Shown: piece after piece, positions 5,228 through 63,835 of the stretch | Position numbering within the stretch: the stretch's first letter is position 1 | Layout: each line of letters begins with the position of its first letter | Origin: Agelas oroides | Taxonomy: Eukaryota; Porifera; Demospongiae; Agelasida; Agelasidae | Direction: 5' to 3' | NCBI GenBank assembly: GCA_949130485.1 | Contig: OX422185.1 | Coordinates: forward strand, 12,348,467-12,412,466 | Length of the DNA stretch: 64,000 bases | The notes under the pieces: generated by a model | What the model was told of the DNA's origin: nothing | The model's input: the letters and a program-made list of their open reading frames with translations, nothing else | Databases searched by the model: none | Translations under genes and position numbers: made by a program

Positions 5228-8089
<2,862 letters not shown>

Positions 8090-20686: not shown

Positions 20687-23600
20687 ATGTGGTCATTACC
20701 GTGGACTCCTTGGGCATCTTGGTCATCTCAGGACAAGGAACCAGAAGAGGTGAAGAAGCAAACAAAGGCAGGAGAGGGACAGAGATCACAGCGTGGTGTA
20801 AAATACTATCAGAGAAGTAAATCCGAGAAGTCAGCCAACATTGATGAGACAGCAGGCATGGATAAAAGAAAGGTGAAACCTCCTGGAGGAGCTAAAAGAG
20901 CTTCAGGTGATCAGCAGCAAGGTGATAGTACAGAGCTGGTTGATGAATGGCAGGTTGTTCGGGAGGAAGAACTGCAGGTAATAAGCACTTGCAAACATAA
21001 AGGTAGAAATAGTTCCATTTTGGGATACGTCCCAGATGTACTTGTTTCAATATGTATTTAGGGAGCCATAAATTTAATTTGATGTATTATCCATAGGCTA
21101 GAGGTGGTTCCCAGGCATTAACTCTGGAAGGAAGGGAAATGACATATTTAGGATCTGAGCTGATGGCAGGGTCTGGCCCTGCATCTACGCTATCAACAGA
21201 CAGTGAAGCATATCGTACCCCACTGAGCAGCCTCTCGGAGCAAGATAGAGGTGTACATCGAGGTCTAGTTCAGGCTGGTTCCAGTGATTCTGGTGTGATC
21301 TTGAGGTTACAGGAAGAGAGCATAGCCAAAGACGCCACTATCAGAAAACTTCAACTAGATGTGAATCAACTCCAACAGAGGTTGAAATATGCTGAACAGC
21401 TGGAAGAGCAAAATTTAAGGCTTACTACAGAAGAGAGTAAACATGAACGGGAGAAGCAGCTTATGAAGGCAGAAATCCAACAATTGCAGCGTAAAGCTAG
21501 TGTTAGTCGACCTTACACTCGAGGCTATGCACACGAGCAAAAGCTGCAAGAATTGGTTAAACGCTATGAGCAACAGTACAATGAAGAATTGGAAGAGAAC
21601 AGCAGACTACGTGATAAGATTTTTCAGCTGGAGAGAGAGATGCAGGAGCTGGAAGGAGGAACCACCTACCTGGGTGATGTGGGTTATTCAGACCTCAAAA
21701 TTGAGCTAAAGAAGAAGGAACAGCATATTCATGCTTTGCAGACCCAGGTGGGGTCGCTGCAGCAACATTCCACGGGTCAGAGCAGGCAGGTACTGCAACT
21801 GAAGCAAGAGCTTGAGGCTCTGAAGGTCAGTAATGTTGTAATATTCCTAGTTGAGATTTTTTTTAGTAACCCAGTTAGTTAATAGACCACTTCCATGTAT
21901 GGCATTCAGTTTGGAAACACTTACATTGTAATGTACTTCTAAGTACAAAAACTGAATGTACCATGCTAGTTGGATAGCCTGGCCCCAAGTTATTGCCTTG
22001 CCTCGTTGTAGCCACGCTCATGAAACTAAAAACATTTTTGTGTACACCAATTTAACAAGGGATGATGGAAATAACCCTACCATACAGCCATGGTTGTATA
22101 CCTAGCTGTTTCAAGCGTTATCACCTTCCAAGGCAATCATAAAGCCCAGCTACACAACAACCAATAGCACTTTCACATGTGACTGCTTTGTATGTAGGTT
22201 CTTCCAAAGAAATGTTGAAATTATAGTGGTAATAGGCGACCGTATCAAGTACATATCGATGAGAATCTTGGCAGTTCTTTATTTAGCTATAGCAAATGTA
22301 ATTGCAAATGGGTCAATCCAAACACCTTCATCAGTACATTGACATGTTGAAGAAAATGTACTATGTAGTGTTTGTTTGCTTTTTCAGTGGGTGTCATGCA
22401 TCAGCTTTGGATATTATAAAAAGAGTTCATTGAGCTCTGTGAATGTGTATATACATGAAAAAAAAACAAAAACATTAAAAATGTAAAAAGATGTAGGGAT
22501 GGCATGCCAAAAGGTATGCAAACAAGGTAGGGATGATGCATGAAAGCGAAGGTCAACATATTGGCAAAGCCCCATCCCTACATATTTTTCACATTACATT
22601 TTGAATGATTTTTATTTTCTTGTTTCTATACTTTTTTGATGTTAAACTCAGTTACAGTTAGACCTAAGTCAAAGAAGTATATTCTTTCAAGTGCAGGAGT
22701 AACCACAACCCCAGAACTTGAAACAGCATTGACAGTAGTTGTTCCAAGCATGTTATGTGTAACATTGCCAGCTAGAACCTGATGAAGGGCCAACCACTCT
22801 CTGTACCTCCCTTTGTGAAGCCAATTTCCTGATTTTCTTTCACACGACAACCGTACTCAGGCAACTGATCACCCTAGCTTTACTAAATTTGCGAGCCAGT
22901 AAGCTATTTTTTCAGCATAGCTATTAGTAAGCAGCCGAATGCAGCACTTTACCTAGGTGGTGTGGACTAGTCTCCCTCCCAGACCAATGACCGTGGTCTT
23001 TGGTTTGGGAATGAGACCATGTGTGCGCATGCGTACAACATTAGAAAATGGCGTCCTACGCAACGGAGAGCAGCCGGGCAGTGCTGTGAACAGCTTTATC
23101 GACCAGGGTGAATTTGAAGCTATGAAGACGCTGAGTGGTCGTAGAGCTCTGCGCTGTGATAAGCATCAGTTTTGTGCTAAAATGACAGTGAGTACTTGAA
23201 CCGTTTTTGAGATATCATTGTTGAACATAGTGGTCTTAACAAGAAATTACACCCCAAGTATGAAAAGCCACAAAAGTGCATGGGTATATCCAATGTTTTA
23301 TCCTTTCTTTCCAAGCCTGAGAGGACTTACTGAAGTTTGACACCACAGCTTGAAACAGTTATCATTGAAGTATCTACTGTGCAAGCGCTAAGCTTGGGAG
23401 CTAATCCACAGCGATTGCACGGGGCCATACATTTGCCATCATTGAATTGGACCTATATAGTGTGACACATGATTTACAGTGGCCAAACTAGTTATCTTGA
23501 CATGAAGGTACTTACATTTGCTAATAATGAGAATATGCAATTTTTTTTAAACCACTGCTAACCTGAGTTATGATAAAAAATGTTGACACTTCAGTGACCA

Positions 23601-26600
23601 CACAAACTTCATCCCGACTTGCAACTCTGGAACCTTGTATAAAGGCTAAGGTATGTACATTGTTAACAAGCTAGCTACAACTTTCTGGTAGCAGACTACC
23701 GATACAGCACAGCCACACCGAGCTACAAGTCACTTTGATACTTTGGTGAAGTGCGCACTTAGCTACTGGCTTGCAGCACTACAGCACATCCCGTGCATCC
23801 ACAGTGCTTTTGATGGCAATGGCGCTTCTTTACAACGCCAAGCGACGTCTCTCAAAAGGCTTTGTGTGGTGTTTTTAGCTCCTTATACCGCACAAATTGG
23901 CAGCTTGGCCATCTTTCTGCCCAGCCTGTCAACACTTATGAAGTTGGCTGGCTTGTTTATCATCTCACCTCTACATGGCTTCAATTACCACCAATTAGGA
24001 ATACTTGATAGTGGAGTGACATACCTGAGCTCCATGTGCAGTTTTAATACCCAGCTAGTGTACATCACAATACATGTGAAGAACGCATTTAGCACACTTG
24101 TTAGAACTTGTTGCTAGATAACAGCTAACGTACTGTACCAGCTCAGTGGCTGATTTCACCAGTTGGCACAATCTTTGTTGTCAGTAGGACCATGTCTTCA
24201 TTTAACCCTCTGTCTTTCACCAACCACACCCTTCATACCCATGGCCTTTCTCTTAGTCAAAGTTTGTGCTCTAATGGCCTGCCACCTATACCTGATACTT
24301 GCACTTGGGATGCAGTTACCACCTGCACCCCAGTCACCATTTTCTTCCCACTTGGGTTGCGGTTATGCTCGGAAAGAAAGAAAGACTACGAAAAATGGCA
24401 CTTTCGCTACCACAAACTTTTGCATTTAGCTGTCTTCTGCATGGCTTTTGGGCACTTATATGAGTCTTGCTGATCATGAAGGCACTCAAAGAGGAAGGCT
24501 GGGCGCTTAAATAAGCTTTTAGCGTATTTGTGGTCAAGTTATACGGCAAGTAAGTATTGCATATATTGCTCGTCCACGCCATCCCTACACAGAGAGTCTA
24601 TTGACTCTCTGATTATGCATGAAAGAAAAATGTGCACTTTGGCTCAGACTTGCTTTGGGCACATGCATACATGCATAATGCATACAGGTTCACATTATTG
24701 TAGGTGTTTTGTAAGCCCAGGTACCCATGTAACTGCAAGCTACAAATATCTACACTTGTAAATCAGTAGGAGAACATTGTGGAAGGTTGATTGCTTCAAA
24801 GCTAGAAATTTTGAGCAAGTGTAATGAAGACAAAGTGAAGCTAAGAACCACAGATTAACATAATGTAATGTCTGGAAATACACTGGAATTGTGTGCAAGT
24901 GTAGAAAGTCAAAGCTGCAATTCCAGGACCACGACACAGACCTGTTTTTTCAACTCTACGAGATAATTGTATCCAGCTATTGCTTTAGCATTGCCAGGAT
25001 TTTTATAACTAGGTGAATGCAGTACATTATGGAGTGAGCTTGATTTTGACATGGGATGGTAACTTTGCATTAATTTTATACCATATTTCCTTGAATGCTT
25101 CCCGTCTTAATTTCTTCCCATCCTTGAAATATACCTGTGCTAATAGGTACCTAGCCTGGTACCTGGCTTTTCGCGCGCACCAGGGACGAGGCTAATAGGT
25201 ACCTGGCTGGCTAGTTCTGTGTGTCAACTCTTGCCATGCATATTTGAATCACTTTGTGGTGTTGCCATAGAAACATGTCAGGCTGTTTACTGAATGCCAT
25301 CAAGATTTTATTATCTAAGCTCAGAAAGAGAACCAGTGAACCAATAAACCAGTGGTGTAGGAACCGTAGTGGCCGTAGCGGCTTTGGCCGCTACACTTTT
25401 TAGGCCGTAAATTAATATTCATGACCTGCATGCATGCTATAAGTTAGCTCAAGCTAGCCTCGTTCTCTGGGAGCAAGGCTAAGGTTAAGCAGCCTCTTCG
25501 TTGCATCAGTCTCATATGCAATTACATGCGTACATTTCCGATTAAAAGTGATCGAAATCTTGGCAGTGAGATGGCTAGGTACGAAGCTAATGCAGATTTT
25601 CAAAGAGACTACTACAAGCGACGAAAGCTAGCCGGGCGGTCTCCTGGGAACGACGACGAAGTCAGTATGATCTGTTTTCCACATAAATTTAATATTGTAC
25701 TGGAGGGTTGTTAGGGTCTGAGAACGAGGCTAGAATATTACACAGCGTTGAAAAAAGGCTTTATTTTGCACTCTAAAGGTGCACACTTTGAAAAAATTCG
25801 CTGCCGTACTTTCCATTTTTTTAGCAGCGCTTCGCACAGCACAGTATGGCCTCTACACTTCAAATTTGCTTCCTACGCCTATGTAAACCATTACTGTACT
25901 ACATTTTTAGGAAGAGAACAGGAAGCTGTCACTGGATGTGGGTGGCCTGCATCGAGATAAGCACTTCTTGGAAAAGTCAATACAAGCCCTTAAGGTCAGG
26001 AATGTGGAAGTACCATCACTATATTTTAGTGTGTCTGTGATGTATAATTTGTACTATTGTATAGAAGTGTAAACTGCACCCCAAGATGCCGCAAGTCACA
26101 GAATCTAGGGTTTAGTGCTGCGGAGTTTCTTTAGCTAAAATATGCTTCAGAGTTTAGTGCTACTTAGCTAAAACACTTAGCATCAGATTAATTCACGCTG
26201 AGGGAGCAGTGAGGCAGTTTACCTACTATGACTTAAAAGGCACACATTCACTGCTTTACATACGTGCTCATTTCATCATTAACCCAAAGCACCAAAGCAG
26301 TAGTGCGCTCAATGCGCATAGTATTAGTTTCTTATGGAGGCATATGGAACACATGATGTCACATAAGTGGGAAAATATACTTTTCAGCAACTAGAATTCC
26401 TTCACCAGCTACATCATCGTTAACTCTCATAATGACTTCAGAAGGGATTTTCTCCTAAGGTAAGTGCACCATGGTATTAACAAATGCATGCTCAGGCTGG
26501 ATGTCTATCACGGCTTGACAATTACCCATTCATTACATTGATTGACCAGCTACATGGATCTTTCTTTTTGCATCTTGGGATGTAATAAATATAGTTATTT

Positions 26601-27479
26601 AATGAGTTAGCGTGTAATATCGTGAGTTATTGCACGAGTGGGCGGGGTATTTTCACGAGCTGAAGAAATATCAACTGGATTAGCCAGTTGATATTTCTAC
26701 AACAGTATTTTCCTATTCCTGTGCAATATCACATGGTATTGCACAGGCACGGGCCCTGGGCCTACACGATATCATAGCAACCACGATGTGCTTCATAATT
26801 AGAATCAATCAGTGGGTTGCTTGATACTTTGTGTGAGAAGAGACACGACACTGTTATGGTAAAGAATAATAAATGTTTTATTACACTCGTTAGCATGCAC
26901 ATCGTGGTTATTGCATGCTAACTTGTGTAATAAGGTATATGTACCACATTTATTCTAGTTATAAAGTGCAGATGCTTAATAAAGGCTTCAGTGAATGGCA
27001 CACCCAGTATAGGTTATGGCATGTGACCACACAGTGTGCCCAAGTCCTGCTTGTATAAGAGACCATTGTAACATGAGTTGGTGAGCATTGGGTCACCTAC
27101 TGCTGTATCTCTGATCAGTCTGCTCTTTTGATTCACACGTGGAAAGACCTTGTGGTTTTGTTAAAACAATCGCTTTTTTCCTAGCCAGATGCTATCATGC
27201 GCAGGAATGGATGGCACCCATTGTCATATAGAATTCCCTGTCTACTACATCAGTGTGGGGCTTGCTCACCAACAGGTACAAATACCTGCATTTATTTTCT
27301 ACCTATAATGCAGGCACAACTGGGAGTCAAGGAAGAGCAGCTAGATTCAGAAGTCAGGAAGCTAGAAGGAGAGAAGGAAGCTCTTCAGAATGAAGTACAG
27401 GTTGCAAAGGCTGAGGTATGTATTTATCTCCATCAGTTTGTCTCTCTACCTATGTATGTATGCATGTATGTATGTTGTA

Positions 27480-27514
<35 letters not shown>

Positions 27515-30500
27515 GTATCGATTATCCATTTATCTATCTATCTATCTACCTACCTACCTATCTAATATCTACTGTATAGCGCAAAATTTTTTTGCGGGTC
27601 TTTAATTTCGCGAATTTTCAGCTGTTCGCGAAAATATTTCAACGAAAATTTTTGATGCACGACACAGTTTTCACGCTCTGACTGCAAGAGCGTTGATGGA
27701 CAACATCCCAGGACTAAGCTGCCGAATCCGCAAGGAACTCTCTCAAGGAGACACCTTCAAAGTAGGCATAATTGCATTGCTTTGCTGACAGCTGTGAGCT
27801 CGAGAGGACGATAGTGTGATGGTACGATGCATGTTAGATAAACCGGCCAGGTTTGTGTGTCACGCCCATAACATATTACGTGTGCAGCATGCACATGCAG
27901 TGAATTCGCGAAATTATTTCAACAAAATCTTCAAAAATTGCTATTCACGAAAATTTAGACCCTCGAAAATTTTTGTGCTATACAGTATTTATCTATCTAT
28001 CTATCTATTGATCTATCTATCTATCTACCTATCTATCTAATATGTATTTATCAATCAATCAATCTATTTATCTATCTAGCTGTATCTATCCATGTGTCTA
28101 CTGATTGTATTGTCATATAGGCTGAGCTCTATAAGGAGGAATTTGAATCAGAGCAACTTGACCGAGAAGTAGCCCATTGGAAGATAGCTGATCATGAGAA
28201 GAAGTATGCCCACGATGTCGGTGAGCTGAAAGCAAAGCTGGCTCAGATGGAAGAAGACGTTGAGCAGTTGTACCAGAGAAGGGAGAACGAGATGAGAAGT
28301 GTTCTAGAAGAAGCATCAAAGAACCAACAGGAGGTGCAGACATCCCAAGTCAAACAGTACAAGAAACAAGTGGACATATTGAAAACCCAGGTTCGCCTCT
28401 ACATTTGATTTCATGACACATAAGTATCTTGGTTCCCTATTTGAAGGACACCACAATTTTAAGGAAAGCAAAGTTCCTAAAATTGAAAATGATGATTCAA
28501 AAAACTAAAACTTTGTTTCTAAGTAGTGTGTTTTTCACAGATGTTGTGATCATTTGAAAATTTTGTGAAGATAAATACCATGCCTCAGCTGGAAATAAAA
28601 ACACGTTTGATGTTATGAGACGAAGGAAAGAAAACCCAGCATGCAGCTACCGACCTTTCAACAAAGCATAAAATGTGTTTGTACATGTTTGTATATATTG
28701 AACTTGGTGTTGCTAATTGCCATGGCTTTGTACAACTACTTTCAAGTCATGTAGAAAGGGAGTTCAAGTGTTGGATTTGAATGGGCTCTCTATCAAAGCA
28801 GGAGCAATATCTGCAATCTTGCCTATCTGTTGCACCAAGTGTGAGGTGAAGGCAACAATACAACAGCCTACTTTCAGGGCTGACTATCCCTCCCGATTTA
28901 CATAAAACTACCACTACACGGTTACGTACCTACACCACATTATGGTGGAATTTTAAGTGTAATGACTTGAGCATTGAAGGCAGGAACACTTGAAAGAGTG
29001 CCCACCCTCCTCTTTGGTGAGCTTGTAAGGTACATGTAAGATGGGCAGTCTTTTGTGAGACCACGGTATCAGTAAGCTAGATTTCTTAACTGATATTGAT
29101 TGGTTGATTGGGCCTGGGAACGAGGCTACAAGTGCAACAAGCAGGAGTGTGCTGAATTGAGAAGTTGTTCCATGTGTATATATATACCTTATTACACGAG
29201 TTAGCGTGCAATAACCGCAATATGCACGTTAACGAGTGTAATATTATCCATTACCACAACAGTGTCGTGTCTCTTCTCACACAAAGTACTGACTAACTTG
29301 CCGTTTGAACGCACCGGTTCTAATTAAAGCACATTGTAGTTGCTAGGATACCGCATAGCCCCAGCCCGTCCAATAATACCCGTGCAATAGCACACATTGC
29401 ACGGCACGGGAATAGGAAAATACTGTTGTAGAAATATCAACTGGATAATAAAATTATTCGATGAATTTCACAAATTGAATCATGTGCAAAACAATTCCAG
29501 TAAAAAGTTTGATATAAACCTTCATGAGTACATGTAGAACAACAAGATGTCTCTGAGGAGGATGAAGAGAGGCCTTATTTACCAGAATTTGGAGATTCTT
29601 TGCTTTAAATACTGATCTATAAGCAGTATACGTATTTTAAGCTGTTGAAGCCTGGAACTGCCACATGCAAATTATCATTGAAACTATTTCTTCCATTCTG
29701 CAGTCCATGACAGATAGTTTACTGGGGGATGACTCGCGGTGTCCATCTAACCGCATTTTCTGCCAGCCATCATCAACTGTAAGTACAAACCATGAAGTAT
29801 CTAGTCTATTGAGCTAGACTGTTTCTCTCGCTCACTGGAGAGAAATTGGTCAAGACGGTGAGGTAGCTAGCTATATGCATTTGCAAGAGTGTGTGGACTC
29901 TGGTTGACTAAATGTACGGTAATGCTACAGCAAGACAAAAATCATGCGATTTCGGGATTTTTAACACTCTGAAGAATGATCTTAATATTGTGGTTGGCTA
30001 CGTCAGCTATCCGTTGCGATGCTGCGGTACCAATGAGATTACCCCCAGAGATGATTGATAGAATGACTAGTCTGCGCTTACAAACAGACCAACTGTCATC
30101 CACTGTCATTACTCGGTACTGGTGACGTGTGTCGAACTTGTTGATGCACTGAAAATACACGACGGAATAATATCCAATTTCTATTGAGGACTGCCACATT
30201 TATTAATTCACATCTTGTAATGTCACATTTTCAGCAGTAATAGAAGTTGTATATACATGTATATACATGCTATTGTTACATCACAGGATAGTGTGTCGAA
30301 GGTGGTGATTGAAGGAAGGCCACAGGGCTCCGTAAAGCTTGAAGATTTCCAAAGGGCTATGTCGAAGGAACCAATTGAAATCAGTCCAGCTGAATTAGCC
30401 AGCCTTGGAGCTAGAGATCACAGAAGTGTCGAGAAGAAAATTCAACAACTTCAAGTTGCAGTAGATCTCAAGGACAATGAAATTGAAACTCTGTCATGTC

Positions 30501-33500
30501 AACTTGACCAGAGAGGGCAGAGGATCGAAGCTTTGAGTAAAGTCCTTGAACACCACAAAACCTCCCAGAGGGGACTGCGACATGATGATGAAGATACCTA
30601 TCTTGAAAACATTGCAAAAATGACCGAGCAGTTGAGTGGATATGAGATATCTGACCGAGAACAGAAGAATGAGTTGGTAAAGCTTCGTGCAAAAGTGAGG
30701 GAAGCAGAAACTGTCACTGAGCAACTGGATGGAGCCATTCAACAAATGGATGAGCTAGAGACGGAGAATCGGATGTTGAAGGAACAGATTGCAAGGCAAA
30801 GTGGGAGTGGGGCTAAGCTCAGCGAAACGGAGGAAGAAAGCCGGAGGGTTCATGCTGAGTATCGTCACCTTGAAGGATCCTATAAGATGTTATACAATGA
30901 CATTGCAGAGTTCCAGCAGCTCCTGCAAGAGAAAGATGCCATGATTGAATGCATGAGTCGACAGCTTCAGACATACAAGAAGACAGTAACTGATTTGATG
31001 AAAATTGTTGAGCACACAAAAGGGCAGAGCCGGATTGTTAAGGATTTCAGACAGCAGCTAGCAAAAACAGAGGTACATGTATGTGTGTTGTATTATTAGA
31101 AGTGCATCTGTTGCTAGGGCAGATGTTTAGGTGTTACATATGGTGTGCTATGCATTCTATTTACTGCCCACCCAGGGAGAACTGAAAAAGAAGGACAATT
31201 TAACTGCAGCAAAAGACTCTGTCCAGGACGAGTTGGAGAGATTGCAGGTATGTGTGAATTTTTAAAAAACCTTTTGTTTGAAGGACAATAACCTCATGTG
31301 CTAGGTTTTGATGACCAGTCCCAGGATTTCATTAATTATATATATATACCTACAAATTCGTGTGCTATAAACCGTAGAGCGAGTTTCTTGCTGGTGAAGT
31401 CAAGTACTGTCGATCTCGTGAACGTCTGGGGTCCGGGCTGTCGTTGGAGTGCTTGATGATGAAGCCAGTACGTTATTTGAATGTGGACCCCTCCCCCCCC
31501 CCTACGTCCACCTCGCGTCCACCAGACGTCATTCACATGACAGGTGTTCCCAGGCCTTCCCCAGTTTTCGCGCTCTTCCGCTTCTGTGTATTGTACAACG
31601 CAAACTGAAGAGCAAAAAACGGGGGAGACCTGGGAACGAGGCTATAATGTGTACATATATACTGTCATTAGAATGGTAGGAAATTAGATAAGGCTTTTTT
31701 TTAGAATTTCAGAAAACCCATTTCTTCAGCTAGATTAGATTTACCAGTACTCTTGTAATGCAAACATAATCTCAAGGAAAAGCACTAGCCATACATGTGG
31801 CTTCCTAGCTAGGAGTACTAAATCTTTCCCAGAAGTTTGCATATGCAGGCAACTTTGACTGTCATATCAGCTCTCTCCATCTGCCAGCCACTTTTGCCAG
31901 TACTTGTTTGTAATAAAACATGATGCACTACAAACCCTCTGCCTGTGACTTCATAAGTGTTGTTTTCATAAGAACACTTCCTTGTGCACTAAACAGCCTC
32001 CTTTGGCCAGTGACTTTGTGGTTTTGTCTGTTAAGAATACTTTCACGTCTAGTGTAGCAGTCTTCTGCATAACTGGATTTGCAAAAATTCCAAGAATTGA
32101 ATTTTTTCTACTAGATTGGATCTACCATTTTTGTATTAGCCAAAACGTGTCCCGCACAGTGCATGAATTTGTCTTACATCAGATGTGCCTTTTTTCAGAT
32201 GTTGCTCATTGATTGCTCATGTTTTTAGTTTGGTTAACCAATTAAGTTTAGAAGTGTTTTAAGATGGTGCACCACCTGAGCTGACCAGCAGTCACAGCTG
32301 CAAACCTGCACAGACGATCCACACAGCTGAGCTAACCAACATGTTGATTTTTATGTAGTGAGAAATGCCTCCTCCCCAACTCAGTGCTATCTTCTGTACA
32401 CTTACTAAGTGTACTTCATGCCACATGTGCATGCACCAAGTTTATAAAATTCTGCTTGAAACACTGACATCTTTCCCTCTTTCTCTTGGACTGTTCAATG
32501 TCTCTAATGTTGCATGTCTACAGGAACTGGCACAGTCTCGTAGAGATGTGACTCAGCTGACCACTGACGTGGAACAACTTCGCAAAGAGAAGGCGAACCT
32601 CGTGGAAGAGGTGGAGGCACATGAATTCACTGTAAGATCTAGTGTTGTGGCCACTGAAGCAAGGTTACCCTTCTCATGTGATGAGAAGGGGCTGTGTGTG
32701 CTAAAAATAGTTGTAATTAAATACAGCACTTGAGTTTTCTGAATGTGTACACACTCAGAAACACTAGCCTCATTATGCAACCCACTACCATGCTAGCTTT
32801 ATGTTAATCACAGCATACCCAGAATAACATTGGCTGCACGCATTTGACAAACTAGCCTATTTTTAAAGAGACCAATCATGCATACATTTTAGTGGTCTTT
32901 GAAAATGTTCATTGGTTACTTAGTACTTGAGAAAGATAAAAAGTACGTAGAATTACAACAGAAACAATTCAGTTTGGTTGAGTTTTTCAACTATCCATGC
33001 TCACCCGTTTGTTTCCACTCAGTTTGCATGGTAGGCAGCAGCGTAAAATGAGGCTACTAGTAAATTGTCTTGAAACCTGGATGTTGGTTCTTGACTGACA
33101 GATTGAGACATTTGCAAAGGAGACTGAAGAATGGAGGAGTGCATGCGATGCAGAAAGATGTCGAAGAGAGGCACTTGAGAGAAGGATTGCTGAACTAGAG
33201 AAAGTGAATGATCAGTTACGACAGGCAAGTATCATATACAAAAGTGCATGTCAAATGCCCCAAGTACAGTAAGTGCATGCTAATACGCCCCCTTCTGACA
33301 GTGCATGCTGAGTGGCTACGGAGGTGCAACCTAACCATTCAGTACTGCCTGTGTAACACCTATACAGAGCTCTGAAGGCTGGTGGGTGTCCAGTTGTGGT
33401 AGCTCAGTAGCAGAGGAGTGTTGTCTCAAGCCAGGTCTCGATTCCCAGTGACTGCTGGCTTTTCACTTTTCTCTATTTTTGCCTCATAACATGTCTTGAA

Positions 33501-34740: not shown

Positions 34741-35715
34741 GTTTTGTTTGTGTTATCGCACTGAGCTCCTATCGACAGGTTTTGTTTGTGTTATCGCACT
34801 GAGCTCCTATCGACAGGTTTTGTTGTGTTATCGCACTGAGCTCATATCGACAGGTTTTGTTTGTGTTATCGCACTGAGCTCATATCGACAGGTTTTGTTT
34901 GTGTTATCGCACTGAGCTCCTATCGACAGGTTTTGTTTGTGTTATCGCACTGAGCTCCTATCGACAGGTTTTGTTTGTGTTATCGCACTGAGCTCCTATC
35001 GACAGGTTTTGTTTGTGTTATCGCACTGAGCTATCGACAGGTTTTGTTTGTGTTATCGCACTGAGCTATCGACAGGTTTTGTTTGTGTTATCGCACTGAA
35101 CTCATATCGACAGGTTTTGTTTGTGTTATCGCACTGAGCTCCTATCGACAGGTTTTGTTTGTGTTATCGCACTGAGCTCCTATCGACAGGTTTTGTTTGT
35201 GTTATCGCACTGAGCTCATATCGACAGGTTTTGTTTGTGTTATCGCACTGAGCTCCTATCGACAGGTTTTGTTTGTGTTATCGCACTGAGCTCCTATCGA
35301 CAGGTTTTGTTTGTGTTATCGCACTGAGCTCATATCGACAGGTTTTGTTTGTGTTATCGCACTGAGCTCCTATCGACAGGTTTTGTTTGTGTTATCGCAC
35401 TGAGCTCCTATCGACAGGTTTTGTTTGTGTTATCGCACTGAGCTCCTATCGACAAGTTTTGTTTGTGTTATCGCACTGAGCTCCTATCGACAGGTTTTGT
35501 TTGTGTTATCGCACTGAGCTCCTATCGACAGGTTTTGTTTGTGTTATCGCACTGAGCTCCTATCGACAAGTTTTGTTTGTGTTATCGCACTGAGCTCCTA
35601 TCGACAGGTTTTGTTTGTGTTATCGCACTGAGCTCATATCGACAGGTTTTGTTTGTGTTATCGCACTGAGCTCCTATCGACAAGTTTTGTTGTGTTATAG
35701 CACTGAGCTCCTATT
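34741..35715 (+). repeat. 38-bp minisatellite, about 26 units, downstream of kinase gene 1
   Basis: The unit begins gttttgtttgtgttatcgca and ends ctgagctcctatcgacag. Units vary at one spot (ctcctatc, ctcatatc or ctatc), and some read gacaag. It starts about 425 bp after the stop of gene 1. No spacers and no coding function. Confidence 0.97.
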
Positions 35716-53179: not shown

Positions 53180-53297
53180 TTACCAAAGTAGCTTCATCAC
53201 AAAGGCAGAATTTGGTCCGTGTTTGCTAAGCTGAGTGAGGTGGAGCAACAGAGAGAGCAGAGGACAATTGCCCACCAGAAAAATACCAGCTACCCAG
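53180..53297 (+). other. Leader-exon-like block upstream of kinase gene 3
   Basis: Homologue of the block at 37320-37388: LSEVEQQREQRTIAHQKN ends at a gttagt donor. The next likely acceptor (cccacag, 53790) leads into the exon bearing the gene 3 ATG. The frame upstream of that ATG is closed, which favours an untranslated leader exon. Confidence 0.4.
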
Positions 53298-53819
53298 GTT
53301 AGTTTCATACTGAAGCTCTCTGTGGCTGTACTGTGAAAAGCTACTCGCAGATCTGTATGGCATGGCAAAATTGTCCCAGCCAGCTTCATGATTTGAGTGT
53401 GAAGCTTAGCCTTCAGCCATAGTGTAGCTTCCTGAGAAGAATGAATGGCTCTATTGTCTATATGTTGAGTTGAACATACAATATTAACAAACTTCCAGAA
53501 GTATAACAAATTTACTACAAAGCACTGGTGCTACTGTGCTAGCACCACTTAGCTTGAAAAATTCTCATCCTTACTGCTTAAGAATTCCTGGCTATACAAA
53601 CACAAGTGAACTGCAAAAGCCTGGAATGCATACAGCCAAGTGGCAAAAATCAAAAAGGGTTATTAGAACTATAACTACACTCCTTGACTGTATACTAGTA
53701 GAGCATTACTAACTTAAGATCTTGATTATACAATAAAAATCTGGACTAACACAAAGATACTCCATCATTCAAGTATATGCTCCACCCACAGCTTAAAAAG
53801 CTTTACTGAACCAGTAAAG

Positions 53820-56800
53820 ATGGCTGCCATTGCTACTGAGAATGAGCAGCTCCGACAGGAGGTGTTGTCAAAGACACAGCAAGTGAAGCAGTACAAGAAA
53901 CAAGTAGACCAGTACAAGCAGAAGGTGGAAGTTCTTAAATGTCAGATTGAAATACAGATACAGCAGGTAATTATTGATTGCACATGCCACTTGTAGCTAT
54001 GTCACCCTGCATGAAACCAGACATTCGCTATAAATTTTGAATTTGTATTAGTCATCTTGAATATTCAATTTCTACTAAACAAGCAGTCCGCCAGCGGCCT
54101 ATGTAGAAACAACCAATACATAGATAAAGACTGTTATCCCAGGACATAGCTACAGTCAGTTGGCTAGTGGTAGAGTGAGTAGCATTGTCAGAGACTGTTT
54201 ATGAATTCAACATATCATGTATCCTTGTATGCCATTGATGGCATACAAGGTAGCAGTCTGGGATAGCAGTCTTTATCTACATCTATGTACTGGTTGTTTC
54301 TACATAGGTCTGCTTGTTTAGTAGAAATTGAATATTCAAGATGACTATTTGCTTGACAGGTTGAGGCATTTGCAAAGGAGGCTGAGGAATGGCAGAGTAA
54401 CTACAATGCAGAGAGAAGTCGGGGAGAGTCGTTAGAGAGAAGGATTGTTGAACTAGAGAATAGTCAGTTACACCAGTGCAACGGTGTAAATGTAAGCGTC
54501 ACCCCAACCCTAACCCTTGCCTTCTCCTTTCCATTTTCATGCACACATACTCTTCCCTTGTTCTTTTTTTGTTGTTGTTTTTTGTTCTTTGGTTTACATA
54601 ATACATGGGTAGAGAGTGGATTGCCTGGGAACACTTACCTATCACGTGATTGACGTCAGGTGGACAGAATAACATTCATCATTTAAAGTTTCACTGCTAG
54701 ACAGGGCCCCAGACATTCACAAGATTGAGAGTTCTCAGTTTGACCAATAAGAAACTTGCTCTGTGGTGGGACTGGCTCAAGAAAACCAGAAAAGTTCTTG
54801 AACTTATGTTGATGAGGTCAATTTGGTGACTCGACCACTTTTGCAAGCTCACTGTCTTTTGTTACCTTCCCCTTTTTGGCATTTTAAGTCAGTTTGTAGG
54901 TGATAGCTCTATTGGTTGACTGCCATGATAGATAGCAGATGTCAGAAAAAATTGTTCAGCTGGAAATAGGCTGGTGATGATCTGAAAAAAATGTTATTTT
55001 TGACCAGCTTTTGAATCATTTGAAGAAGTACTTGTAGTTGTTAAAATACTGTCTGGAATTTAAAGCTGTCAGCAGTTGACCTCATTATCATGCCTCCCCC
55101 ATTTGTGTGGTAATCGGGGCAAGCATGAGTGAGCCCCAAGCCAGTGAGTTGAATGGCAGGATTTTTTGGATACCGTGTGAGACTCTTGGTTGCAAAACAG
55201 ATATCTTATGTGAGCTGGAGAGATGTTCTGTGGAAGGACAAGGTAGATCTTGAAGTAAAGCATTTTGCCTCCAGGACTTGGACTATGCATGAAATACAAG
55301 TCAGAAAATTCACTGCTTGATTCATGGTTTGAATGTCATCAATTAGTTCATCCCTTTCTCATGCTAGCCCCCTCAATATTTTAGTGCACTTGTATATTTT
55401 AGTGGGTGGGAGGAAACAAGTCAAGAAAAAGTTTTCAAATTGAGATGACTCAAAGGTTATGGCTAGTGAGTCAGAATATTCAGTGAAGGATAGCTGACTG
55501 TATTTAGCTAGATCTGTAAGTCTAGTTGACGATCATCTGTTGACATTTTTATATTAGCATGCTGATCTAGAAGGCCACAACACTGAACTGTTGAAAGAAA
55601 GGGATAAGAAAGCAGAGACCGAAAAAGCAAAGAAGGAGGCTGAGAAAGTGAAGAAGGAAACTAAGAAGAAGCTATCAGACAAGGGTGCTACATCTCCTGA
55701 ACCAACTGGAGTGTCCATGGCACTTGAAAAAAAACTAGCCCAAAATGAACAGCTTTATGAGACACTTAGAAATGAGAATGATGTAAGTGGTTACAATCAG
55801 TTTACAAATGCATGCATAGTGGTAATGTGCCCAGTGCATAGACATAAGGACGACATATGTATGTGGTTTAAAGGAAAATTCAAATGTTGACTCAAGTTCT
55901 ATTAAAATTGAGGTTTCCAGCAATGGAAGGACTCACAGGCTATTGAAGTAGGTTTCATCATCTACAGATGTGCAGGTATATTACTAGCTAGTACACATAT
56001 AACCCAGTGAGTGGTAGCCACACCCACCTTAATTGGCACTTGGTGGTATGAATATTGCTAACATTTGAATTTTACTTGAACCCTTCACATAAATTATAAA
56101 AGTAGACAGTATAAGACTATGTGACAACTGTTGTGAGATTTAAATGCCTGTGTGTGCAACCACAGGTGTAAAAAAAGTGACAGCAAACATATCATATAAT
56201 TTATAACCAATTTTTCTAACTGTAGTACCATGGAAACATGCTATCAGTAATGCAGTAAAAAATATATCTGATAGTCTGTAATATATTCCTGCCATAATAC
56301 AGGATCTGCGAGATGAACTAAATGCATTTCGCACAGCAAACATGAGTCTAAAAGAGATGTTGACACATGTCCCTCAAACACTGCCACTGCCACAGAGTTG
56401 TGTGAGTTAGATTCATGTTTTTTTTTATGTACACATTTCTAGTGGCTCCTATACTTAATTCTTATACACTCCCAAGTGCAAGTGCTGTCTTTTCCTGTGT
56501 AAAAAAACATGCAGTCCTTAGGTCTTAAGTTAGCCATTAATCAATGATTGTTTACTTACAGAAATCACCGGAGCCTCTAATGACACCCCCAGCTGTTGAT
56601 CTATGTGGAGCAACCCTTACTGGACATCAATCTACTGTAAGTACAATCTTAACTCAGGTTATCTGGGCCCCGTATGTTGGGTTTGGAGGTAACAATGGTG
56701 CTACAGTGTTGTTCATGTCTTTCCAGTATGGTTACACTGAATAGCTGCATTAATTTTCAGTATGGATGGCAACTTAACTCTTGACTTCTCAAAACTGTTT

Positions 56801-57982
56801 CAAGTGATTTGTATTTTTTGGCTTTTGTTTCAAACACTTTTCTGGTCTGGAATGTCAAATGACCAATCTGAACTCAGAAGGCATAATTAAGTGCCATTAC
56901 ATCACTGAGCAAATGCATCGTATGTTGCAAACCATTCTATAGTCAGCTCATTCTAGTGAAGAGCATTACTTACTACAACAACTGTTAATTGACATACTAT
57001 GCATATTGCTGTATATGTACAGCTTGTGCAGCAGTTGGAAGAGAAAGATAAACTTCTACAAGAAGCTCGAGATGAACAGCTACAGCTGAGACAGCAGACA
57101 GATCAAATCATGCAAAACCTGAAGGGTGAAAATAAATTATTGAGACAGAAGCTTGGTGGGCAAACGGAAAAGTTACAAGCTCAACAAACTCACCAGAGTG
57201 AATTCTGGGAAGTCTCACGAGAGGAAGTAGACCTTGATATGCAGAAATTTCTAGGCACTGGTGCCTGGGGTTTTGTGGTGGAGGGCACATTTCGAGGTCA
57301 GCAAGTGGCTGTGAAACGTATGCATGATATGATTCAATCACCAGAGTTTGTTGAAGTAATCCGTAAGGAGATTGCCATCATGGCCCAGGTCCGACATCCC
57401 AATCTTGTACTACTCATTGCTGCAGTGATGGATGCAGAAAATGATCCCCTCATTGTCACAGAATTGCTTGACATTTCACTGCGAAAAGCATACGAGAAAA
57501 AGCGTCTGCAAGGCTCCAGCAAACTGAGTATCTTTCGAGACATTGCGGCAGCCCTCAACTACCTCCACCTTCACCAAAGTGGTGAAATCATCCATCGAGA
57601 TGTCAGCTCTGCTAATGTTCTCTTGGAGGCCAAACCCAACAATCAATGGAAAGCCAAGCTGTCAGATTTTGGGTCTGCCAAGCTTGCAATTGAAGCCAAG
57701 AGCACAGCCCCAGGGGCGCCAGTGTACTCAGCTCCTGAAGTTCGAAAAGAGATGGGAATTCGTCAGACAGCAAAGTTGGATGTTTATAGCTATGGAATTC
57801 TTCTGTGTGAAGTTACTGTGGAACAGTTTCCTGGTGAGAAGAGTCTTCCTAGCATGATGCAAGTGGTTCGATGCAAGTGGGCCTTTATACATTGCCTCAT
57901 CAGTTCATGTATACAAAGTCATCCAGACAGGCGACCAACAATGTCTTATGTATTGAGTGAGCTCAATAAGCTGCAGTCATAG
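53820..57982 (+). CDS. Kinase gene 3: short coiled-coil protein with C-terminal TKL-type kinase domain
   Basis: Six coding exons, all phase 0: 53820-53966, 54360-54491, 55558-55782, 56303-56401, 56562-56636, 57023-57982 (stop TAG), 545 codons. The ATG sits in an exon that likely begins at 53791 after acceptor cccacag. The frame upstream of the ATG is closed, so the start is reasonable, and an untranslated leader exon near 53180-53297 is possible. Residues 1-95 and 227-285 are coiled coil. Exon 3 is very Lys/Glu-rich (KKEAEKVKKETKKK). Exons 4-5 are Pro/Ser/Thr-rich linkers. Kinase domain: GTGAWG, Lys 324, HRDVSSAN (417-424), DFG (441-443), APE, RRPTM, with a complete catalytic set. The kinase exon is closest to that of gene 2 in layout, because both keep about 60 coiled-coil residues in the same exon as the kinase. 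A 299-bp foldback element ends 12 bases before exon 2. The tail of this gene is duplicated at 63547. Confidence 0.8.
54049..54347. mobile_element. 299-bp foldback MITE ending 12 bp before exon 2 of kinase gene 3
   Basis: tagtcatcttgaatattcaa pairs with ttgaatattcaagatgacta, and pairing continues inward (tttctactaaacaagcag; tatgtagaaacaacca; aagactgttatccca). Inside is a second palindrome, ccttgtatgccat/atggcatacaagg. Confidence 0.88.
54492..55557. other. Intron 2 of kinase gene 3, nothing recognised
   Basis: 1.07 kb intron with T-rich runs. No repeat family or RNA gene identified. Confidence 0.5.
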
Positions 57983-58131
57983 AGAATATCATCTAAAGTG
58001 AACATTTTCTCACCCATGACTCGCAAAGCTTCATTTTAATCGACCTGCACACTCTTACAGATATTAAGGTAATTGTTATTTAGAACATGACTGTACATAG
58101 CCAGTTTTTATGTATGTACATTGTAGTCTCA

Positions 58132-58190
58132 TTCCCAGGCTCCACCATCCAAGTGGCAAAAAGCTGTGGGCAGTAGCCTGGGAATATGTG
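58132..58190. mobile_element. Decayed Mutator-like MITE in the gene 3 tail
   Basis: tagtctcattcccaggctcc faces cagtagcctgggaata. The same remnant recurs at about 63918-63975 in the duplicated tail, so it predates the duplication. Confidence 0.6.
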
Positions 58191-58199
58191 CACTGTAAC

Positions 58200-59003
58200 A
58201 CAGGCTACCTGTAATGTTGTTATGATGTCCTTTAATGGAAGTTTCTTTTAATGAGCACATCCAAGATATTTTTTCGGGGTTAAACCACAACCCAAGATGC
58301 AAGAGGTTATTGCAGTTATATTAGCTAAAAGCTTTAAAGTATAGTGCTACTTATAACTTTAGCTAGAATGTTGTTCTTCTTAGTTTCATCATAAAGCTTC
58401 ACCTACAAGAGAGAAGCCAGATGTGAGTGTAACACTGCTGGTATAAGCTTGTTGGTGAACAAAAGTTTCTGAACTCACAGTGTATGTGCACCATGGCACT
58501 AACAAAATGCACTTAGATTAGCTATATGTTCAGCGCTTCCTCTGACTGGCCTTTGTATTATTTTACATAAATTCTTTATTCACATCTTGGCCATGGGGAG
58601 TAATTGCAAATCTATGAATGTCTAACAAATCAGCTATATGCATCTTTAACCTATTACTTTTGCTCTTGAAGACTGAGTTGACCCGGAATAATGTGACTCT
58701 GAATATATGATGGTATCAAGCATTGTCAAAGCAAACACTATGAATGTCTAACAAATTAGCTACATGTATAGTACTAAGTTTCAGAGACCTGAAGGTCTCG
58801 TTGAGCTAAGCACAGCAGGTGTGCTACTAGCAATTGCTGAGCATTGTTTCTAGTATATATTCATTCACTGCAGGCCTTGGTATTGGTTGTTGCAACTAGG
58901 ATTTACAAAGTCTGGATTTATTATTGCCAGAAAACTAGAAAGAGTAGTATTCAGCAACAGTGATGGTTGTGGCTAGCAAGGTTCTGACTTGGAAACACTG
59001 CAA
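58200..59003. other. No gene seen between kinase gene 3 and the satellite
   Basis: A short direct repeat (gaatgtctaacaaat at 58615 and 58742) is present. No exon found. Confidence 0.5.
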
Positions 59004-62000
59004 TACCTTATAGAGCTGGTCTACAAGTGGTTCGAATAGATTCGAAACTTGCGAAACACATCAAATTCATGTGAAAGTACCTTATAGTGCTGGTCTACCA
59101 CTGGTTCAAACAGATTTGAAACTTCCGAAACGCATCTACGTCATCTGAAACTACCTAACAGTTCTGGTCTACTACTGGTTCGAACAGATTCGAATCTTTC
59201 GAAACACATCGAATTCATGGGAAAGTACCTTATATTGCTGGTCTACAAGTGGTTTAAACAGATTCGAAACTTTCAAAACACATTGAATTCATGTGGAAGT
59301 ACCTATAGTGCTGGTCTACCACTGGTTCGAACAGATTCGAAACTTTCAAAACACATCGAATTCATCTGAAACAACCTAACAGTGCTGGTCTACTACTGGT
59401 TCGAACAAATTCGAATCTTTTGAAACACATAGAATTCATGTGATAGTACCTTATTAGTGCTGATCTACAAGTGGTTCGAACAGATTCAAAACTTTCAAAA
59501 CACATCGAATTCATCTGAAACAACCTAACAGTGCTGGTCTACTACTGGTTCGAACAAATTTGAATCTTTTGAAACACATAGAATTCATGTGATAGTACCT
59601 TATTAGTGCTGATCTACAAGTGGTTTGAACAGATTCAAAACTTTCGAAACACATCGAATTCATCCGAAAATACCTAACAGTGCTTGTCTACTAGTGGTTC
59701 GAACAGATTCAAAACTTTCGAAACACATCTAATTCATGTCAAACTACCTAACAGTGCTGGTCTACTAGTGGTTCTAATGGATTCTAAACTTTTGAAACAC
59801 ATCGAATTCATCTCAAACTACCTAACAGTGCTGGTCTACAAGTAGTTCGAACAGATTCGAAAGTTTTGAAACACATTGAATTCATGTGACAATACCTTAT
59901 AATGTTGGTCTACTAGTGGTTCGAACATACCCAGAACTTTCGAAACACATCGAATTCATGTGAAACTGCCTTATAGCGCTGGTCTACTAGTGTTTTGAAC
60001 AGATTCGAAATTTTCGAAACACATTGAATTCATCTGAAACTTCCTTATAGTCCTGGTGTACTAGTAGATTCGAAACTTTCAAAACACTTCGAATTCATGT
60101 GAAACTACCTTATAATGCTGGTCTATTAGTGGTTCAAACAGATTCGAAACTTTCGAAACACATCGAATTCATCTTAAACTACCTTATAGTGCTGGTCTAC
60201 TAGTAGTTCGAACAGATTCGAAAGTTTCGAAACACATCGAATTGATCTGAAATTACATTGTAGGGCTGGTCTACTAGTACATCGAATAGATTCGAAACTA
60301 CCAATTCGAAATCATGTGAAGATACCTTGTAGTGGTGGTCTACTAGTAGTTCGAACAGATTCGAAACTTTCCAAACACATTGAATTCATCAGAAACGAAC
60401 TTGTATTGCTGGTCTACTAGTGTTTCGAACAGATTCAAAACTTTCGAAACACTTCGAATTCATGTGATACTACCTTCTAGTGCTGGTCTGCTAGTACATA
60501 GAATAGATTCGAAACTTTCGAAACACTTCGAATTCATCCTTATAGTGCTGGTCTACTAGTGTTTCGAATAGATTCGAATCTTTGGAAACACATCAAATTC
60601 ATATGAAACTACCTTGTAGTGGTGGTGTCCTAGTAGTTTGAACACATTCGAAAGTTTCGAAACACTTCGAACTCATGTGAAACTACCTTGTAGTGGTGGT
60701 CTACTAGTAGTTCGAACAGATTCGAAACTTTCGAAACACACCAAATTCATCTGAAACTACTTTATAGTGCTGGTCTACTAGTGTTTCGAACAGATTTGAA
60801 ACTTTCGAAACACATCGAATTCATCTGAAATCAACTTGTAGTGCTGCTTCGAACAGATTCAAAACTTTTGGAATTCATGTGAAACTAGTAGCCCTCTAGT
60901 GCTGGTCTACTAGTATATCGAATAGATTCGAAACTTTCGAAACACTTCGAATTCATCTGAAACTACCTTATAGTGCTGGTCTACTAGTGTTTAGAACTGA
61001 TTCGAAACTTTCGAAACACATCGAATTCATAATTATGAAACTACCTTGTAGTGGTGGTCTACTAGTAGTTCGAACAGATTCGAAACTTTCGAAACATATC
61101 GAATTCTTCTGAAACTACCTTATAATGCTGGTCTACTAGTAGTTCGAATAGATTCGAAACTTTCGAAACACATCGAATTAATGTGACACTACCTTATAGT
61201 GGTGGTCTACTAGTACTTTGAACAGATTCGAAACTTTTGAAACACATCGAATTCATGTGAAACTACCTTATAGTGCTGGTCTACTAGTGCTTCGAAAGGA
61301 TTCTAAACTTTCGAAACACATCGAATTCATGCGAAACTACCTTATAGTGCTGGTCTACCAGTGGTTCGAATTCATCTTAAACTACCTTACAGTGCTGGTC
61401 TACTATATATAGTAGTTCGAATAGATTCGAAACTTTCGAAACACATCGAATTCATGTGAAACTACCTTATAGTGCTGGTCTACTACTATATCGAATAGAT
61501 TCGAAACTTTCGAAACACTTCAAATTCGTGTGAAACTACCTTATAGTGCTGGTCTGTGTTTCGAACAGATTTGAAGCTTTCAAAACACATCGAATTCATG
61601 TGAATCTATGTTGTAGTGCTGGTCTGCTACTGTTTCAAACAGATTCGAAACTTTTGAAACACTTCAAATTCATCTGAAACTACCTTATAGTGCTGGTCAA
61701 CAACTGTTTTGAACAGATTCAAAACTTTCAAAACACATCGAATTCATTTGAAACTACCTTGTAGTGCTGGTTTATTAGTGTTTCAAACAGATTCGAAACT
61801 TTCCAAACACATCGAATTCATCTTAAACTATCTTATAGTGCTGGTCTACTGGTAGTTCGGACAGATTCGAAACTTTCGAAACACTTCGAATTCATATGAA
61901 ACTACCTTATAGTTCTGGTCTACTAGTGTTTCGAACAGATTTGAAAGTTTCGAAGCACATCGTATTCATATGAAACTACCTTATAGTGGTGGTCTAGTAG

Positions 62001-63544
62001 TGTTTCGAACAGAGTTGAAATATTCAAAACACTTCAAATTCATGAGAAACTACTTTAGAGTGCTGGTCTACTAGTATATCGAATAGATTCGAAACTTTCG
62101 AAACACTTCGAATTCATCTGAAAGCACCTTATAGTTCTGGTCTACTAGTGTTTTGAACAGATTTGAAACTTTCGAAACACATCGAATTCATATGAAACTA
62201 CCTTATAATTCTGGTCTACTAGTGTTTCGAACAGATTTGAAAGTTTCGAAGCACATCGTATTCATATGAAACTACCTTATAGTGGTGGTCTAGTAGTGTT
62301 TCGAACAGAGTTGAAATATTCAAAACACTTCAAATTCATGAGAAACTACTTTAGAGTGCTGGTCTACTAGTATATCGAATAGATTCGAAACTTTCGAAAC
62401 ACTTCGAATTCATCTGAAAGTACCTTATAGTTCTGGTCTACTAGTGTTTCGAACAGATTTGAAACTTTCGAAACACATCGAATTCATATGAAACTACCTT
62501 ATAGTTCTGGTCTACTAGTGTTTTGAACAGATTTGAAAGTTTCGAAGCACATCGTATTCATATGAAACTACCTTATAGTGGTGGTCTAGTAGTGTTTCGA
62601 ACAGAGTTGAAATATTCAAAACACTTCAATTTCATGAGAAACTACTTTAGAGTGCTGGTCTACTAGTATATCGAATAGATTCGAAACTTTCGAAACACTT
62701 CGAATTCATCTGAAAGTACCTTATAGTTCTGGTCTACTAGTGTTTCAAACAGATTTGAAACTTTCGAAACACATCGAATTCATATGAAACTACCTTGTAG
62801 TGGTGGTCTATTAGTAGTTCGAACAGATTCGAAACTTTCCAAACACATTGAATTCATCTGAAACCATCTTGTAGTGCTGGTCTACTAGTGGTTTGAACAG
62901 ATTCGAAACTTTCGAAACACATCGAACTCATGTGAAACTACCTTGTAGTGCTGGTCTACTAGTTGTTCTAGCCGATTCAAAACTTTTGAAAGAAATCGAA
63001 TTCATCAGAAACTACCTTCTAGTGCTGGTCTACAAGTGCTTCGAACAGATTCAAAACTTTCGAAACACATCGAATTCATCTGAAACTACCTAATAGTGCC
63101 GGTCTACTTGTAGTTCGAATAGATTCGAAACTTTCGAAACACATTGAATTCATATGAAACTACTTTGTAGTAGTGGCCTACTGGTAGTTCGAACAGATTC
63201 GAAACTTTCGAAACACATTGAATTCATCTGAAACTACCTTGTAGTGGTGGTCTACTAGTAGTTCGAACAGATTCGAAACTTTCGAAACACATCGAATTCA
63301 TCTGAAACTACCTAACAGTGTACTAGTGTTTCGAACAGATTCGAAACTTTCGAAACACATTGAATTCATGGGAATGTATTATACCTTATAACCTTAGTCT
63401 AAAAGTGGTTCGAGCAGAGTCGAAAGCTTCGAAACACATCGAATTTATGTGAAACTACCTTATAGTACTGGTTTACTCAGTCAAGTAGTGGTTCGAGCAG
63501 ATTCGGAAATTTCGAAACAGATCGAACACATGTGAAACTACCTA
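59004..63544 (+). repeat. 74-bp satellite array, about 61 monomers
   Basis: The monomer reads accttatagtgctggtctac, tagtggttcgaacagattcg, aaactttcgaaacacatcga, attcatgtgaaact. TTCGAA recurs about every 10-13 bases within each monomer. Monomers differ by 5-20 percent by eye, so this array is older or less homogenised than the 38- and 52-bp arrays. Confidence 0.97.
61920..62800 (+). repeat. 296-bp higher-order repeat within the satellite
   Basis: The diagnostic variant gaagcacatcgtattcatat occurs at 61952, 62248 and 62544, exactly 296 bp (four monomers) apart. Neighbouring variants (gagttgaaatattcaaaac; tactttagagtgctgg) recur at the same spacing. Confidence 0.9.
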
Positions 63545-63546
63545 GG

Positions 63547-63835
63547 AAAAGAAGAGATGGGAATTCATCTGCCAGTAAAGTTGGATGTTTATAGCCATGG
63601 AATTCTTCTCTGTGAAGTTACTGCGAAAGAGTTTCCTGGTGATGAGAGTCTTCTAAGCATGCTTCAAGTTGTTCAATGCAAGTGGGCCTTTATACATTGC
63701 CTCATCACTTTGTGTATACAAGATCATCCAAATTGGGGACCGACAATGTCTTATGTACTGGGTGAGCTCAATAAGCTGCAGTCATCATCTAAAGTGAACA
63801 TTTTCTCACCCATGACTCACAAAGCTTCATTTTAA
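63547..63835 (+). pseudogene. Kinase relic C: C-lobe and 3' UTR duplicate of gene 3
   Basis: From 63547 the sequence matches gene 3 from its codons for KEMGIR onward (57751 on), including DVYSHGILLCEV, and continues through the 3' UTR to the window edge. The catalytic loop, DFG and N-lobe are absent. The conserved HPDRRPTMS reads HPNWGPTMS here. A small deletion removes the gene 3 stop, so the frame runs on to 63835. It begins exactly where the 74-bp satellite ends, so the missing front was probably lost in a satellite-associated rearrangement. Confidence 0.85.

Follow-up and report, generated by a model that had tools for sequence, protein, structure and literature searches.

Coiled-coil TKL-like kinase genes in the sponge Agelas oroides and their proposed origin from ABIN/NEMO-like UBAN adaptors

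Kinase genes and relics of the array

We analysed a 64,000 nucleotide stretch of the 259 Mb genome of the sponge Agelas oroides (contig 3, positions 12348467–12412466; hereafter the window), which holds an array of genes with a constant kinase end and a variable coiled-coil front. Three kinase exons were open and lay on the + strand (33538–34317, 50817–51785 and 57023–57982), and decayed kinase pieces were present at 9.0 and 63.5 kb, as expected from an original prediction of three intact same-strand kinase genes with relics. The same prediction had described the kinase exons as strongly alike, which was borne out: pairwise identity was 78–82 % with dN/dS (the ratio of non-synonymous to synonymous substitution rates) of 0.23–0.25, and blastn among the three exons returned E = 0, a likeness beyond chance. 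The predicted motifs were present (HRDVSSAN or HRDVSSSN, DFG, and YSAPE or YAAPE); VAVK, RKE, HRD and DFG were invariant in all three, and the kinase domain includes the Lys-Glu pair. Matches to the Pfam models Pkinase and PK_Tyr_Ser-Thr ranged from 4.5e-34 to 1.3e-36. Among the best 60 of 2049 rows of matches to solved structures in the PDB, CTR1 came first (3e-27), then EGFR (2e-20), followed by LRRK2, MLK, TNNI3K, Raf, Csk and Src close together; by these nearest solved kinases the window kinase would be classed as TKL-like. Its catalytic loop HRDVSSAN has no Lys at HRD+2, where Lys is usual in Ser/Thr kinases. An AlphaFold run on the three-row kinase alignment gave a mean predicted local distance difference test score of 41 and was not used.

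Gene models were built by site-by-site splice modelling and checked against paralogues where present; a codon-model gene finder used alone was rejected, having split the coil exons. Candidate exons for gene 1 were restricted to lengths divisible by three, which partly selects for phase 0, and a search in all phases ranked these phase-0 coil exons with its top candidates. Gene 1 was modelled with ten exons (1,114 residues), gene 2 with six exons (780 residues from the ATG at 41530) and gene 3 with six exons (545 residues). Every internal exon boundary modelled in the three genes is phase 0/0, an arrangement that would let exons drop out or change places with the reading frame intact. The modelled features are given below, where P1 and P2 are two non-kinase paralogues on the same contig and UBAN is the ubiquitin-binding coil of the ABIN, NEMO and optineurin adaptors.

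9027–9168 (approximate), +: relic, kinase scrap; aligns with each window kinase exon at 70–71 % DNA identity, stops in every + frame
20687–20977, +: gene 1 exon 1, opening with the ATG at 20687 and encoding the Trp-rich head; 90 % amino acid identity to P2, dN/dS 0.64, donor CAG/gtaata
21097–21825, +: gene 1 exon 2, coil; sole other genome match at E <= 0.01 is P2 (90 % amino acid identity); phase 0/0, dN/dS 0.26
25911–25994, +: gene 1 exon 3, coil of 28 amino acids, modelled from splice sites, phase and coil composition only
27314–27415, +: gene 1 exon 4, coil before the UBAN; 82 % amino acid identity to the P2 exon over 34 codons
28121–28390, +: gene 1 exon 5, UBAN exon (AELYKEEFESEQLDRE); 83 % amino acid identity to the P2 UBAN exon, match to the UBAN core profile
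30287–31072, +: gene 1 exon 6, long coil; 81 % amino acid identity to P1, end matches gene 2
31176–31247, +: gene 1 exon 7, coil; 95 % DNA identity to P1, phase 0/0
32524–32631, +: gene 1 exon 8, coil in common with gene 2; 90 % DNA identity to 45609–45716
33102–33224, +: gene 1 exon 9, coil in common with gene 3 and P1; 81 % DNA identity to 54354–54460, 59 % amino acid identity to P1
33538–34317, +: gene 1 kinase exon; Pfam Pkinase 1.3e-36
41530–41997, +: gene 2 head exon, ATG at 41530; matches the P1 head at 60 % amino acid identity (66 % over 82 aligned codons)
42207–42542, +: gene 2 exon carrying YSNI (near 42372) and YTNM (near 42504), both of the form YxN; modelled from the open reading frame, splice sites and motif position
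43361–43708, +: gene 2 exon, YENL then coil; the coil part matches gene 1 exon 6 and P1
44027–44140, +: gene 2 coil exon, from gene-finder score; phase 0/0
45619–45726, +: gene 2 coil exon in common with gene 1 (90 % DNA identity)
50817–51785, +: gene 2 coil and kinase exon; Pfam Pkinase 3.8e-36
53820–53966, +: gene 3 first modelled coding exon, UBAN-exon tail without core; 86 % DNA identity to P1 over the 3' portion of its UBAN exon
54360–54491, +: gene 3 coil exon, common to gene 1 and P1
55558–55782, +: gene 3 Lys/Glu coil exon; 79 % amino acid identity and dN/dS 0.35 to P2, weak acceptor (0.1)
56303–56401, +: gene 3 exon, phase 0/0; region 56298–56656 matches P2 at 69 % DNA identity
56562–56636, +: gene 3 exon, phase 0/0; within the P2-matching region 56298–56656
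57023–57982, +: gene 3 coil and kinase exon; Pfam Pkinase 2.7e-35
63548–63835, +: relic, kinase 3' fragment without N-lobe (kinase part 63548–63778); 72 % amino acid identity to the kinase end of gene 3

A minisatellite lies near each window kinase exon (34741–35714, 38 bp x 26; 47026–49500, 52 bp x 48; 59004–63543, 74 bp x 62), and these are possible sites of unequal exchange. The third, 4.5 kb long, stands between the gene 3 kinase and its duplicated 3' end: the relic at 63548, which sits directly behind it, is an 84 % DNA duplicate of 57747–58211.

Shared front exons and non-kinase paralogues

DNA self-comparison of the window identified coil exons common to the front ends of the three genes. 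Gene 1 matched gene 2 at 30905–31076 and 43550–43712 (76 %) and at 32514–32621 and 45609–45716 (90 %), and matched gene 3 at 33096–33202 and 54354–54460 (81 %); genes 1 and 2 do have different outermost heads. The fronts are therefore differing subsets of related exons. This contradicts the original prediction that the N-termini are unrelated, as do the matches of the fronts to ABIN/NEMO-like UBAN neighbours described below. Of the accompanying interpretation, the constant kinase end, TKL-like by its matches, and the variable front are supported; the fronts are subsets of adaptor-type exons rather than unrelated. The exons at 33102 and 54360 (WRSACDAERCRREAL and WQSNYNAERSRGESL) were considered as UBAN exons and rejected as plain coil, the core lying 13 codons into the exon rather than six and the key residues differing. 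The gene 2 exon at 42207–42542 had no Pfam match; its YSNI and YTNM, like the YENL of the following exon, are presumably akin to SH2-docking YxN motifs.

In four genome searches with window front exons, all matches outside the window were confined to 12.544–12.572 Mb of contig 3, minus strand. These belong to P1 and P2, 128–160 kb beyond the window, which were delimited by DNA mapping and open reading frames, with the end of P1 and some of its middle falling outside the sequence examined. P2 comprises the gene 1 head (90 % amino acid identity), a UBAN exon (AELYKEDFDSERRDRE) with four of four contact residues, the gene 3 Lys/Glu coil, a proline-rich part and, at its end, a LTCPMCDKRFRYGEIQKYRLHVNKQC finger of the NEMO-like form CxxC...H...C. 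P1 comprises the gene 2 head, gene 1 exons 6 and 7, a UBAN exon (AQTFQEDFQQERKDRE), the exon that genes 1 and 3 have in common, and a stretch rich in proline. In the PDB, P2 matched ABIN2 and then NEMO, and P1 matched ABIN2 and ABIN1 only. None of the genome kinase matches listed fell at P1 or P2. UBAN exons were also found on contig 3 at 13.75 Mb and contig 15 at 7.97 Mb, where proline-rich open reading frames with a CxxC finger-like end follow (read by eye), and a further one on contig 3 at 12.50 Mb. By this mapping the window fronts are homologous to nearby non-kinase UBAN genes, and therefore gene 1 combines a P2-like front with a P1-like rear, gene 2 is P1-like and gene 3 is mixed. The first modelled exon of gene 3 is the tail of a P1-type UBAN exon that has lost its core.

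The front of gene 1 compared with P2 gave a dN/dS of 0.31 pooled over 463 codons (0.64 for exon 1 alone), and gene 1 exon 6 compared with P1 gave 0.44. These ratios speak for coding constraint on the fronts, and are no proof of the splice from 28390 to 30287. The P2-like part of gene 1 stops at 28513 and the P1-like part starts at 29679, so that gene 1 could be two gene pieces: a truncated adaptor gene (20687–28390) standing before a separate coil-kinase gene (30287–34317), with the fusion of reader and kinase real in a second cluster on contig 2. The donor after the gene 1 UBAN exon is weak (-1.0), and in P1 the homologue of exon 6 comes after a different head. Nevertheless, all ten exons of gene 1 are open and joined in phase 0, the window has no zinc-finger pattern, and the pooled dN/dS of 0.31 argues against a long-dead relic, although constraint on the P2 side contributes to it. 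Because of the switch between 28513 and 29679 the two-gene reading stays a tentative alternative, clearly less probable than a single gene 1.

UBAN exons beside kinase exons on contig 2

The window kinase has at least 125 matches in the genome. Among those listed, four lie in the window, 10 in 70 kb of contig 2, 26 on contig 7 (9.02–9.81 Mb), six on contig 13 and others elsewhere. Six of the 10 contig-2 matches are full-length and open, with a pooled dN/dS of 0.19 (15 pairs); their coil-kinase exons were modelled at 960 to 1281 bases, the coil part varying. A kinase tree within this genome (31 rows: 26 genome loci, the three window genes and two outgroups, the decayed L020 being excluded) grouped the window genes together and likewise the contig-2 six, with Shimodaira-Hasegawa-like approximate likelihood ratio test (SH-aLRT) values of 92 and 86. 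Both are nested in one 10-row clade (SH-aLRT 96) that includes the decayed L018 and has no resolved internal order. The further clusters, the self-comparison and the tree agree with the birth and death originally proposed for the array. On contig 7, the kinases at 9.02–9.81 Mb are of a related HRDISSAN type, 12 compared loci (L027–L038) being nearly identical, and coils inspected at seven of these loci carry AEQRATQ-like heptads whose number differs between copies. Such change in heptad runs and coil length in the contig-2 and contig-7 copies would be a second source of variation.

Upstream of the contig-2 kinases lies a 126-base exon encoding LRVFKEDFEAERHDRQRMNDEKLHCESEIAKLRQEQDRYKKQ and variants thereof. 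It is a UBAN exon with a DFxxER core, present in five of the six full-length genes with an AG start, a GT end and phase 0/0, and its end lies 109–484 bases upstream of an in-frame phase-0 acceptor of the coil-kinase open reading frame. A further, sixth copy is decayed and belongs to a broken kinase. The contig-2 peptide matched the NEMO model CC2-LZ of Pfam at 35.6 bits (E 1.3e-8; cut-off 35.3), and a second, longer peptide scored 29.7 bits. In the PDB it matched ABIN1 (8e-7), NEMO (3e-5), OPTN (4.5e-5) and ABIN2 (0.005); UBAN proteins made up the best 20 of the 26 rows. The contact residues reported from an optineurin crystal are D474, E478, R479 and R482, and the affinity reported for optineurin and Met1 chains is about 1 uM (PMC4999505). 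All four residues are kept in four of the five contig-2 exons, the fifth having Gln for R482, and the family core DFxxERxxRE is present with Q in place of the E of RE. Pooled dN/dS of the exon was 0.31 (10 pairs; 0.13 to 1.05 by pair). An AG stands exactly six codons before the core D/E in nine of the 10 UBAN exons compared, gene 1 included, the tenth being the decayed copy; the P1 and P2 exons have it in the same place.

In the window, the pattern [DE]Fx2Ex3R[EQ] occurs once, in gene 1, with the AG in place, whilst 60 mononucleotide shuffles yielded it three times, each time lacking the AG. A profile built from 10 other UBAN cores, leaving out the gene 1 exon and including paralogue P2, matched that exon at 21.3 bits (E 3.2e-5; 13,194 peptides from 70 sources). 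Against 177,635 PDB sequences the gene 1 UBAN matched ABIN2 first (E 0.043), then a bacterioferritin, a lipoprotein and NEMO.

One could suppose that this is an ordinary expanded coiled-coil TKL family, with coils that merely dimerize the kinase in the manner of the MLK zipper and a UBAN likeness due to generic coil similarity. It is true that no UBAN core was detected in the coils of the other members seen, window genes 2 and 3 and the loci on contig 7 among them, and that the coils match many Pfam coil models weakly. We consider this unlikely, as a contig-2 peptide passes the curated CC2-LZ cut-off, the UBAN matches in the PDB stand well above other coils, contact residues and intron position are common to the UBAN exons, and kinase-less UBAN genes, one of them with a finger, lie nearby. 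Finger and kinase exons might instead be alternative 3' ends of one adaptor locus, as the phase 0 of all modelled exons would allow; this is very improbable, the finger pattern of the UBAN family being absent from the window and from the contig-2 sequence examined, which has gaps. A contig-7 kinase coil at 8395939–8396166 (CC2-LZ 24.0 bits) was also tried as a UBAN and was rejected as coil noise because its locus, L045, scores 3.9 bits against the UBAN core profile.

Several features lie apart from the array. Two close kinases of another family stand directly downstream of it (L043 776–1603 and L058 2832–3941, at 12.413 and 12.444 Mb of contig 3), L058 with the motif HRDLSANNVLL. There are at least 129 Pkinase matches genome-wide, several in arrays of long single open reading frames of about 650–800 amino acids, for example on contig 3 at 18.14–18.33 Mb. 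Within the window, 13646–14245 and 15603–16202 form an inverted repeat of 600 bases, 97 % identical, with a 95-base tandem unit in each arm. A helicase exon at 14277–14768 on the minus strand (Pfam DEAD, 8.4e-15) is presumably RecQ-like, and an open reading frame at 5312–5620 on the same strand resembles what we take to be JNK/p38 kinase subdomains.

Proposed origin and function

In the view we favour, ABIN/NEMO-like UBAN adaptors exchanged their proline-rich, finger-bearing end for a TKL-like kinase exon; the array would be one local branch of the resulting family, which then went through birth, death and loss of the UBAN. From the sequence evidence we put the probability of this view at roughly two in three (0.66). 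It is slightly less probable, and still our preference, that the products are single-chain ubiquitin-receptor kinases, that the kinase took the place of the finger before the window and contig-2 clusters parted, and that later copies keep, weaken or drop the reader.

A number of results weigh against this view. Every splice join is a modelled one and some sites are weak, among them several on contig 2 (UBAN donors 0.1–5.5, one acceptor 0.3), where one of the six full-length genes has no UBAN core. The CC2-LZ cut-off was passed by one of five peptides tested, with CC2-LZ the top match in three. For gene 1 exons 4 and 5 it was the top Pfam match at a weak 19.5 bits (E 0.0013); P1 and P2 scored 23.1 bits each, likewise below the cut-off, with IFT57 above it for P1. 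Because none of 10 matches in a genome scan with CC2-LZ passed, and two of 14 prokaryote controls also matched below the cut-off, weak scores with this model mean little by themselves. Of the four contact positions, the UBAN of gene 1 retains two, E and the second R, and has E for D and Q for the first R; it may therefore bind ubiquitin weakly or not at all. Profile and pattern searches found no UBAN core in genes 2 and 3, gene 3 keeping the tail of the exon only. Core search and profile likewise found no UBAN in the contig-7 array, most of its upstream sequence lying outside the search, and the core search did not recover the diverged exons in P1, P2 and gene 1 either.

Both parts of the proposed fusion have known relatives. 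ABIN1 and ABIN2 (TNIP1/2), NEMO (IKBKG) and optineurin likewise carry a UBAN core in a long coil, and P2 shares with them a proline-rich stretch and a C-terminal finger; in contrast, a kinase domain, modelled in the same chain, forms the end of the window and contig-2 genes, in which no finger was found. The kinase domain is alike by sequence to those of the TKL kinases (MLKs, Raf, TAK1, LRRK and plant CTR1), from which the family differs in the HRDVSSAN loop without the usual Lys, the coil before the kinase and, in some members, the UBAN. MLKs unite a zipper coil and a kinase in one protein, with an SH3 domain before the kinase and the zipper after it (MAP3K9-11), whereas here the coil comes first and no SH3 is among the Pfam matches to the modelled window exons. 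The proposed logic, in which a ubiquitin reader brings a kinase to chains, is that of OPTN-TBK1, NEMO-IKK and TAB2/3-TAK1; there it takes two or more proteins, and here a single chain is proposed. Vertebrate adaptors (NEMO, OPTN, ABIN) and kinases (IKK, TBK1, TAK1) are separate proteins, and in the TAB-TAK1 pair too it is the ubiquitin reader that brings the kinase to chains. A review describes NEMO and OPTN as working with separate kinases, and the UBAN family members it names are NEMO, OPTN, ABIN1-3 and CEP55, with no kinase among those named (PMC11854354). Among the open-access papers listed by our searches we found no report of a UBAN-kinase fusion, going by titles and the starts of abstracts, and the family is one of two known parts, UBAN and TKL-like kinase, in an arrangement we did not find described.

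If the fusion is expressed as modelled, the long coil would dimerize the protein and an intact UBAN would bind ubiquitin chains, linked through Met1 or Lys63, on cargo or at a signalling complex; crowding on the chain could then switch on the kinase by trans-phosphorylation. Copies without the reader, such as window genes 2 and 3, have coil and kinase only and would act as coil-kinases. The variable fronts may have arisen by tandem duplication, in-phase exon loss and exchange with neighbouring adaptor genes; wide tandem and segmental duplication is reported for a freshwater sponge genome (PMC7385117). The sensor role suggested in the original prediction would thereby become concrete, with ubiquitin chains as the probable input, and nothing was found bearing on self-recognition. 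Variable coils that had been anonymous become a family for which a donor and a ligand can be named as likely, together with a record of birth and death. If this is true, ubiquitin-driven immune signalling can unite in a single protein a reader and a kinase that are separate in vertebrates, and these sponge genes would offer a compact, testable system for chain-driven kinase switching.

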